Origin: Candidatus Hydrogenedentota bacterium
GTDB taxonomy: Bacteria > Hydrogenedentota > Hydrogenedentia > Hydrogenedentales > CAITNO01
Length of the DNA stretch: 32,759 nucleotides
Reading direction: 5' to 3'
NCBI GenBank assembly: GCA_029776995.1
Contig: JAKOTZ010000109.1
Span: 1 to 32,759 of the forward strand
Part shown: positions 24,287-32,759 of the stretch, one piece after another
Numbering within the stretch: position 1 is the first letter of the stretch
How the letters are laid out: each line of letters begins with the position of its first letter
Translations under genes and position numbers: made by a program
The notes under the pieces: model-generated
What the model saw: only the letters and a program-made list of their open reading frames with translations
Told to the model about the DNA's origin: nothing
The model's database searches: none

Positions 24287-26131
24287 GTGAAACCCTGTCC
24301 GTACTGCGGCGCGGCGGTCGAAGAAGGCGCGGCTGTTTGCACGGCGTGCAATACGCCGCTGCCCAGCCACAGCACCCCCACGAAACTCGCGCGGCCCGGA
24401 GAAGCCCCCCTGGATACCGGACGCGTACTGGGCAACCGGTATGAAATACTCTCGTGCATTGGACAGGGCGGCATGGGGTTCATCTATCGGGTTCGGGACC
24501 GGGTCCTGAATGAAGACGTCGTGCTGAAAACCCTGCGGCCATCCCTTGCCAACGATGCGGAAATCGTAGAACGTTTCTTCAACGAGGCGCGGGTGGCGCG
24601 CAAGCTGACTCACGATAATATCATCCGGGTCCATGACATCGGCAGCACCGAGGGGGTGGTATACATCTCCATGGAATACCTGGAAGGAGTAACGCTGCGA
24701 GACTACCTGAAGTCCCTCCCACCGCCAGGACGCATGCCTCTGCTGGATGCCCTGATGGTCGTGCATGACCTGTGCCGCGCGCTGGAATACGCTCACCAGG
24801 TCACCGTGCACCGGGACATCAAGCCCGAAAACATCATGCTGACCAAAAACGGGCAGATCAAGCTGATGGACTTCGGCATTTCCAAGCTGGTGAACTCGCC
24901 CCAGGTAACCCAGGTGGCCGCCGTGATGGGCACGCCGTTCTACATGTCCCCCGAACAGTTGCGGGACAGCCACGACGTGGACGGCCGGGCGGATATTTTC
25001 AGCGTCGGCGTGATTTTATATGAAATGCTGACCGGAAACCGGCCCACCGGCATCCCCAAACCGGCGTCCGAGGTAGCCAAAGTCCCGCCGATGATCGATG
25101 AGATCATAGCAAAATGCGTGGATGAGGACCGGGAAAAACGGTATCCGTCCGCTCGAGCGTTGCGGGATGCCATACGGCCGATTATCGTGGCCCTGCGGGA
25201 AGAGAAAGACCTGTCCGTCCTTTCCACACCCAAACCCTCAGGCGCCGCAGTGAAAGATCACCCGTCAGGTCCATCGTCCGTACAGGCCGCAACACCGACA
25301 GCCCCAAAAAAATCCGATCCGGGCGTTTCCGTTCCGCCTGCTTCACAGCCTTCCAAACCTGCCGAATCCGGCACTAAACAACCCAGCTTCCCGGAGCTTG
25401 ATCCCAAGCTGCGGGAACTTTCTCTGATGCACCTTGAACTGCCCGACCCGGGGAAAACCAAAAAGAAAAAGAAATCATCCGGCCTGCCTTCCTTCGTGAT
25501 TTACGGCGCCATGGTGGTGGCAGCCGGCGTGTTGCTGTACTTTGGCGGCACTTTCGCGCTGGCCCGAATCCGCGAAATGCGCAACCGCAGCGATGTCACT
25601 GTTACTGTCCCCAACCGCGCGCTGGATATGCTGGCCCGAGGGGAATCCCCACTCCTGGCGCTGGATGAGGCCCTGCGGGCACAGCGGGAAAACAACTCCA
25701 GCGAAAACCAGCTGATTCTTCAGCAGGTACGGGCGCGGCTCAGCGAAGAAATCCAAAGCCGCCTGAACTGTATTCCCTACGACCCGGGCAAAGTGGCTGA
25801 AGCGTCCGAAATGGCCATGCGTTTCGTGGAAAAGGACGCCTGCCCCGAAGCGCAGACCCTGCTGAACAAAGTCAATGAAGACTTGTCACATTACAAGTTT
25901 GTCCTGGCAGAGGTAAATACCCAGACCGGAGCTGCCCGATTCCTGCTGAACAATCCCATGCGGTCCGAACGGGAACAGACGGTTACGGAGGGAGATTTAC
26001 TTCAGGACCGCTTCATCGTTAAGAAAATCGGCTCCAATTACGTGCTGCTGGATGATACCCGGGTAGGCTCAGAACAGACCGGCTTCCGTTCATTACGGTG
26101 CAGGCTGATGTCGCCGGTAACGGCTTTCTGA
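24287..26131 (+). CDS. Zinc-ribbon, membrane-spanning Ser/Thr protein kinase (PknB/Hanks type)
   Basis: A 614-residue protein that starts at GTG 24287, with GGGAG about 8 nt upstream. A zinc ribbon comes first (C4, C7, C18, C21). The kinase domain (about 52-305) is complete: IGQGGMG (59-64), K81, HRD with D177 (HRDIKPEN), DFG at 195-197, and GTPFYMSPEQL (216-225). A proline-rich linker and a run of lysines precede one membrane helix (about 402-425). The last 185 residues would be outside the membrane and are not a PASTA repeat; they contain helical segments and end in a small beta region. It should phosphorylate proteins in response to an envelope signal. The next gene starts 30 bp later, so read-through is possible. 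Confidence 0.92.
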   Translation: MKPCPYCGAAVEEGAAVCTACNTPLPSHSTPTKLARPGEAPLDTGRVLGNRYEILSCIGQGGMGFIYRVRDRVLNEDVVLKTLRPSLANDAEIVERFFNEARVARKLTHDNIIRVHDIGSTEGVVYISMEYLEGVTLRDYLKSLPPPGRMPLLDALMVVHDLCRALEYAHQVTVHRDIKPENIMLTKNGQIKLMDFGISKLVNSPQVTQVAAVMGTPFYMSPEQLRDSHDVDGRADIFSVGVILYEMLTGNRPTGIPKPASEVAKVPPMIDEIIAKCVDEDREKRYPSARALRDAIRPIIVALREEKDLSVLSTPKPSGAAVKDHPSGPSSVQAATPTAPKKSDPGVSVPPASQPSKPAESGTKQPSFPELDPKLRELSLMHLELPDPGKTKKKKKSSGLPSFVIYGAMVVAAGVLLYFGGTFALARIREMRNRSDVTVTVPNRALDMLARGESPLLALDEALRAQRENNSSENQLILQQVRARLSEEIQSRLNCIPYDPGKVAEASEMAMRFVEKDACPEAQTLLNKVNEDLSHYKFVLAEVNTQTGAARFLLNNPMRSEREQTVTEGDLLQDRFIVKKIGSNYVLLDDTRVGSEQTGFRSLRCRLMSPVTAF

Positions 26132-32037: not shown

Positions 32038-32079
32038 ATGCCATCGGCCAGGCGGAAGCATATCAGCTATGGCACCTGA
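32038..32079 (+). CDS. Possible 13-codon leader ORF overlapping the right-edge gene start
   Basis: The ATG at 32038 has AAGGA about 6 nt upstream, a better SD than that of the following gene. It encodes MPSARRKHISYGT and stops at 32079, 11 bp inside the next gene in another frame. It may couple translation, or a misread base may have split one gene from its true start. It is below the size at which coding can be judged. Confidence 0.3.
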   Translation: MPSARRKHISYGT

Positions 32080-32759
32080 CGGAAGACCAGACAATTACCC
32101 CGCGCCGGAAGACAGTACAGCCGAACCACAGCTGTCTGACGATGCGGCTGTCGCGCGCCTGCCGCTTTCGGACAATACCCTGACCGGCGAAGACCCTGTC
32201 TCCGCGCCGGAACCGGTCGCCAGCCCCGCCCGCACGGCCGCGCCGGAATTGCCTGTCGGCGAAAATATACCGGCGCCGGGAGATCCGCCGGCGGCGCCGT
32301 GGGAAACCCTGCCGGGAGGCGCCCCGGAAGAACCGCCGCTTACCGACGAATATCTGGCCGGCCTGCGGGTGCTGGATGCCGTGGCCGCCAGCCCGATCGC
32401 CCGGAATATGCCCCGTACCCAGCCATCCCAGGGGGGATACCAGGAAATCGTGCCGGTCCCTCCGGCGGATTCGCCGCTGGTCACCCAGGAAGAACTGGAC
32501 GCGTATCTCTCCGGCGTGCCAGTTACCCAGCGTGCTCATGATGCGCCGTCAGAAACTGACTCCGGTGACAGCATTGCGTTAAGCCAGGAAGAACTGGACG
32601 CGCTGATCGCGTCTGCCCCCCCGCCAACATCGCTGACTGCCGGTCTGGCGGAAAAGTTTGAAACAGCTTCCCACGAACCGGTCCCCGGGAACATCAGCCT
32701 GGAACAGGCGGACATTGACCGGCTGATTCAGGAAGCCGGAGCGCAAACCGCAGAAGCCC
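32069..32759 (+). CDS. Acidic, proline-rich protein with repeated FliM-N-terminus-like motifs, truncated by the right edge
   Basis: The frame starts at ATG 32069, the only in-frame start before an upstream stop, and stays open to the edge (230 codons seen). The sequence is rich in P, A, E and D, with no signal peptide, and looks disordered. It contains three spaced short motifs: TQEELDAYLSG, SQEELDALIAS and EQADIDRLIQEA. They closely resemble LSQDEIDALL at the N-terminus of the flagellar switch protein FliM, which binds CheY. The DNA of the first two shares a 19-bp exact repeat (32485-32503 and 32584-32602), 99 bp or 33 codons apart. The visible part does not reveal whether a FliM, FliY or other domain follows. 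No chemotaxis or flagellar gene is in the window. Confidence 0.6.
   Translation, partial: MAPDGRPDNYPAPEDSTAEPQLSDDAAVARLPLSDNTLTGEDPVSAPEPVASPARTAAPELPVGENIPAPGDPPAAPWETLPGGAPEEPPLTDEYLAGLRVLDAVAASPIARNMPRTQPSQGGYQEIVPVPPADSPLVTQEELDAYLSGVPVTQRAHDAPSETDSGDSIALSQEELDALIASAPPPTSLTAGLAEKFETASHEPVPGNISLEQADIDRLIQEAGAQTAEA

Follow-up and report, generated by a model that had tools for sequence, protein, structure and literature searches.

What might a protein do that carries, several times over, a segment resembling the N-terminal tail of FliM? The question is raised by the last open reading frame (ORF) of a 32,759-nucleotide stretch of DNA (the window) from a Candidatus Hydrogenedentota bacterium. 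The ORF encodes 230 amino acids, starts with an ATG at position 32069 of the forward strand and has no stop before the contig end; since the window takes in contig G000:C208 from end to end, the ORF runs off it. We read nucleotides 32069 to 32759 (+) as the first 230 codons, the 5′ part, of a gene whose product is a membrane TPR protein bearing an array of FliM motifs; the remainder of the gene is on contig G000:C179. Three motif copies lie in this part, all on the forward strand. Copy 1, VTQEELDAYL (32480 to 32509), was recognized by the motif expression and falls on a helix predicted by AlphaFold2; copy 2, LSQEELDALI (32579 to 32608), was recognized in the same two ways and by a profile of the array (E 4.2e-5, with a near-identical sister-species copy among the profile rows); and copy 3, LEQADIDRLI (32699 to 32728), is divergent (profile E 1.9), falls on a predicted helix as well, and was missed by the motif expression because it has E at a disallowed position. 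The first two copies share an exact 19-bp repeat in frame (32485 to 32503 and 32584 to 32602, +), as the preliminary description had pointed out.

The regular expression found 2 copies in the ORF, whereas 2,000 shuffles gave 0.006 copies on average and never more than 1. Modeled alone with AlphaFold2, the ORF had a mean pLDDT of 55.8 and short helices at residues 140 to 148, 173 to 182, and 213 to 229, which are the three motifs, and at residues 93 to 112 and 189 to 198. This predicted model fits a disordered protein with short helices, and the initial reading of repeated FliM-like motifs in such a protein was thus borne out. A predicted helix that is not of the FliM type covers residues 93 to 107 within TDEYLAGLRVLDAVAASPIA (32345 to 32389, +; pLDDT block means of 80 and 74); this tail helix, TDEYLAGLRVLDAVA, has a prediction confidence close to that of the motifs and recurs in the same-genus ortholog of G001. 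Pfam assigned no family to the ORF, and a single-protein scan of named genomes with the ORF as query returned no relative, the ORF being too divergent. The genes upstream of it in the window encode a signal peptidase and a metallophosphatase, so that any flagellar link is invisible in the window itself. The window also encodes a Ser/Thr protein kinase that bears a zinc ribbon at its N-terminus (24287 to 26131).

The rest of the protein, which the preliminary description had proposed to seek to the right of the window, was found through a relative. Besides the own genome, the ORF matched one ortholog among 60 genomes, in G001 of the same genus (62% identity). This ortholog is complete at 1,082 amino acids: its acidic, disordered tail carries five motifs, and a single transmembrane helix leads on to a TPR solenoid of ∼680 amino acids. 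A stretch on contig G000:C179 is 88% identical to the corresponding part of the G001 protein and has two more motifs, and the gene order after the TPR gene is the same in the own genome and the sister species (a ∼160-amino-acid protein, then a CoA-binding-like protein, read by eye). The C208 ORF and the C179 part are therefore probably one split gene with five recognizable motif copies, three of them in the window. What follows the array is a transmembrane helix and a TPR part in a family that carries the motif, and not an unrelated enzyme from a motif-free family, the outcome that was to speak against the FliM reading. On the full ortholog, Pfam gave only TPR-type hits and a few others, to repeats or weak; neither in it nor in the window ORF did Pfam detect the FliM middle domain or the SpoA (FliMN_C) domain. 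As the genome also has an ordinary FliM and FliN, the suggestion of a new kind of switch protein is unsupported in the form given.

The N-terminal tail is acidic. Around the membrane helix, the mean net charge is +3.6 in the 20 residues before it versus −1.5 after it, and of 36 proteins, 34 carry the higher charge on the N side, 2 have equal charges, and none shows the opposite pattern (counted without G059, without the second G044 copy, and without G027, in which the segment called transmembrane is probably wrong). The positive-inside rule therefore predicts that the tail lies in the cytoplasm and the TPR part in the periplasm. AlphaFold2 modeled the TPR part with a mean pLDDT of 88.1, the last 14 residues with low confidence, and DSSP assigned helices only. 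With this model, the best solved-structure matches in Foldseek were generic TPR proteins, many of them eukaryotic. A chain of the Campylobacter jejuni periplasmic scaffold (9hmf_K) ranked 9th (E 7.8e-11, TM 0.25) among many unrelated TPR proteins; it matched no better than many of the eukaryotic ones, and the fold is therefore no proof of kinship. PflB was not among the VIA-align matches listed, which excludes nothing. Alignment A1 was made without L030 (G027), and alignment A2 holds 16 of 30 sequences.

Motif numbers vary widely among the orthologs, from 0 to 19 copies each, compared with shuffled means of at most 0.03; the counts for G017, G018, G027, G040, and G057 are lower bounds, since contig ends cut these N-termini. 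With a widened expression, 184 copies were collected from the N-termini, with the columns [LIMV]-[SDT]-Q-x-[DE]-[LI]-D-[ASR]-L-[IL], in which the Q is fixed by the expression used. Column counts, the profile search, and the AlphaFold2 helices all agree with the FliM/FliY motif, a helical L-[ST]-Q-x-[DE]-[IL]-D-x-L-[LI], and the FliM N-terminus of the own genome begins MAEILNQEEVDLLL (MAEILNQEEVDLLLSAVT). The preliminary description had called for a profile search of the motif. A profile built from 38 array copies, with no FliM included, was searched against 177,635 PDB sequences. FliM took the first two ranks, with the protein of 8umd (residues 4 to 17, E 0.035) at rank 1 and the peptide cocrystallized with CheY in 4iga (E 0.05) at rank 2, followed at rank 3 by an unrelated leucine-rich protein (E 0.075); taken singly, these E values are marginal. 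The 8umd protein is that of Salmonella and the 4iga peptide that of Thermotoga. In eight genomes, most hits of the same profile were to the array protein; one was to an ORF that contains FliM (G022), and others were to unrelated ORFs, two of which, on inspection, resemble an EF-hand protein and a secreted one. The family Phage_TAC_6 was hit in two N-termini (L065 and L068), but only weakly as a sum of repeats; as no single stretch passes, the hit was taken as chance.

Named records gave 24 loci for the family, most of them titled Candidatus Hydrogenedentota and two "uncultured bacterium." Among 68 Candidatus Hydrogenedentota genomes, 46 encode the protein and 49 the FliM/FliN C-terminal (SpoA) domain: 45 have both, 4 the SpoA domain only, 1 the protein only, and 18 neither. 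The protein is thus present in 45 of the 49 SpoA-positive genomes versus 1 of the 19 SpoA-negative ones (Fisher P = 1e-11, a value that ignores relatedness). The four genomes with SpoA only are 66 to 84% complete, and the one with the protein only is 60% complete. In the own family, both are present in the own genus only, and the other 15 genomes have neither. G038 (100% complete) and G039 have neither in families where others have both; G021, the sole member of its family (63% complete), also has neither. That no flagellar genes lie nearby, as had been said, is right for the window, but the implied absence of flagella is wrong: other contigs of the own genome carry fliM, fliN, motB-like, sigma-28-like, and cheA genes (SpoA and CheW by Pfam, the rest read by eye from the sequences). 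Sequence comparison supports the view that this predicted inner-membrane protein is tied to flagella and common among the flagellated members of the phylum. In many genomes, FliM and a short FliN are joined by a third SpoA protein of ∼300 to 350 amino acids, encoded directly after fliM (e.g., L084, 6417 to 8347). At L044, a SpoA-locus ORF has the internal motif SISQDELDSIL, and such motifs occur in some relatives.

At the 23 named loci with the protein, the genes often found 3′ of it encode a ∼145-amino-acid protein (cluster 3), a PAS histidine kinase (cluster 1), and an NtrC-type regulator (cluster 2), with 12, 14, and 13 of 23 loci, respectively; some of these occurrences are nonadjacent and some loci are cut. 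In G044, this operon adjoins flagellar genes: it is followed by fliE, fliF, fliG, a fliH-like gene, and fliI and, further on, by flgE-type, motA, and motB genes, all confirmed by Pfam except the fliH-like one. The same genome has two close copies of the array/TPR gene, L095 (G044:C116:1-20000) and L116 (G044:C138), with 9 and 8 motifs, which may be true paralogues or an assembly duplicate. The ∼145-amino-acid downstream protein is weakly FlgN-like (E 0.015 to 0.03 in 2 of 4 tested, below the cutoff). The downstream protein of the own genus matched the cluster model weakly in a three-sequence search with filters off (E 4.8e-5 for G001 and 0.017 for the own genome).

CheW matches, which are counts of domains and not of proteins, were present in 33 of 60 genomes. 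The number of motif copies rises with the number of CheW matches (rho 0.57, n = 37, P = 0.00026), a post hoc correlation, sought after the family was known; it was computed over the 37 genomes left without the second G044 copy, G059 (truncated gene), and G000, which is absent because its gene is split. For the 29 genomes that are at least 90% complete, rho is 0.62, and independent contrasts gave r values of 0.65 for raw and 0.52 for log counts. Genome size also correlates with motif copy number; given genome size, the partial r of the contrasts is 0.63 for raw and 0.47 for log counts. At the upper extreme are G048 (19 copies and 13 CheW matches) and G035 (14 and 8). Several CheW-positive genomes have 0 to 2 copies, e.g., a single copy in G019, with its 5 CheW matches, and none by the expression in G052 or G055. 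G018, G026, and G030 have FliM/FliN-type genes and no CheW match, yet show 68 to 92 receiver-domain matches.

These last three genomes, 95 to 96% complete and with SpoA present, are also where the CheY reading meets its main competitor. They keep 2 (a lower bound), 2, and 3 copies, respectively, such as LSQADLDALI (G026) and ISQDMIDALI (G030), so that chemotaxis alone cannot account for the motif. There may thus be another ligand, and the copies suggest either an older one or a CheW-independent receiver. More generally, the helices might dock another flagellar or regulatory partner (the C-ring, an export component, or the NtrC-type receiver), with CheY as a secondary ligand or none, for example as an assembly checkpoint for a sigma-54 flagellar program; the shared operon with the weakly FlgN-like protein, the PAS kinase, and the NtrC-type regulator in many relatives would agree with this. 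We consider it rather unlikely, given that, among solved sequences, the motif comes closest to the segment by which FliM binds CheY, that copy number follows CheW, and that no kinase or regulator adjoins the array gene in the own genus. The receivers point the same way. In CheY, K119 is a FliM contact. Near cheA, the sister species encodes two receivers of the CheY type, of which the first is close to Escherichia coli CheY (E 8e-29) and keeps the equivalents of Y106, K109, F111, and K119, and the second has V at position 119; the co-operonic NtrC-type receivers have A at the K119-equivalent position in 8 of 8 compared. As Y106, K109, and F111 are kept in all receivers compared, K119 alone separates them, with Lys in one of the two sister-species CheYs.

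The same evidence that speaks for docking CheY~P would serve a protein that withholds it: an acidic, low-affinity decoy, with many copies per molecule competing with FliM, could act as a CheY~P sink that keeps the signal from the motor or damps noise. A membrane anchor and a flagellar TPR part, however, suggest a location at the motor, where a sink is less useful, and we regard this alternative as improbable. A very remote one, by now largely refuted, holds that the copies have nothing to do with FliM and derive from calcium loops of the EF-hand or dockerin kind that have degenerated, or are repeats that arose by chance in a low-complexity tail. It could draw on an EF-hand-like protein of the sister species that contains LSQAELDAF and on a weak hit of the calcium-binding family XopAW to the window ORF (E 0.023). 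But the loop D-x-[DNS]-x-[DNSG]-G-x-L-x-x-x-[ED] fits none of 175 copies, none of which has all five tested EF-hand positions (the second G044 copy and copies at most 7 residues from the N-terminus being left aside); six N-termini gave no EF-hand or dockerin hit in Pfam; and shuffling does not yield motif copies.

On balance, then, the protein is probably a flagellar membrane scaffold whose cytoplasmic tail forms a multivalent docking array for CheY~P. The flagellar link, the inward orientation of the tail, and the identity of the motif are supported by the comparisons above. Docking on a CheY-like receiver, one of the two roles first imagined for the motifs, is the best-supported reading in view of the FliM-first profile, the flagella, the CheW correlation, and the CheY residues, the binding itself being inferred. 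The TPR part would form a periplasmic scaffold within the motor or around it, much as C. jejuni PflB does. Each helix would dock on phosphorylated CheY like the N-terminus of FliM, which binds in the groove between helices alpha4 and alpha5 of CheY; the tail could in this way gather many CheY~P molecules beside the C-ring. As a tethered antenna or buffer, it would determine how much CheY~P is locally available to FliM. Duplication would tune the copy number to the size of the chemotaxis system. It is conceivable, and we put it forward tentatively, that flagellated Hydrogenedentota have such a dedicated, membrane-anchored CheY~P antenna, with a number of docking helices that evolves with the size of the chemotaxis network. 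In the usual picture, each FliM subunit at the motor offers one docking peptide for CheY~P. The array protein suggests an unrecognized way to gather the CheY signal there and, if the antenna is real, it would stand for a class of chemotactic motor-control components that sit beside the switch itself. With a natural series of 0 to 19 copies tethered by a membrane scaffold, the effects of docking valency and of the local CheY~P concentration could be put to a direct test.

The ingredients of this protein are familiar; their combination is not. We found no description of FliM-like motif arrays in the literature and no publication on the flagellar motor of Hydrogenedentes/Hydrogenedentota, in a coverage made up mostly of titles and abstract openings, with subscription journals largely outside it. 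The segment with which FliM and FliY bind CheY~P, at their N-termini, is described as the "EIDALL" motif (PMC9126983); the likeness lies in the pattern L-S-Q-x-E-[IL]-D-A-L-L, its predicted helicity, and its place on a flagellar protein. In FliM, a C-ring protein, a single copy stands at the very N-terminus, beside the switch domain (PMC9126983), whereas the array protein has 0 to 19 within the disordered tail of a membrane TPR protein that lacks a switch domain. The Campylobacter flagellar rim protein PflB likewise has an N-terminal cytoplasmic part, one transmembrane segment, and a periplasmic TPR solenoid (predicted in our case), and removal of its cytoplasmic part is reported to reduce motility to 50% (PMC11870540 and PMC12222027). 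The antiparallel beta-strand pair that has been described as defining for the PflB solenoid is, however, absent from the predicted model of the array protein. An array would hint at a role for the cytoplasmic part, so far unexplained, of scaffolds such as PflB. The spirochete collar protein BB0058 is also a periplasmic TPR protein required for flagellar function, but it has a signal peptide where the array protein has a large cytoplasmic tail, and the accessible part of its description makes no mention of a FliM-type motif (PMC8609358). Finally, Caulobacter CleD, a CheY homologue that binds FliM, shows that the FliM motif can also recruit CheY-like proteins that are not CheY itself (PMC7534056); there, the variety is on the receiver side, whereas in the array protein it is on the docking side.
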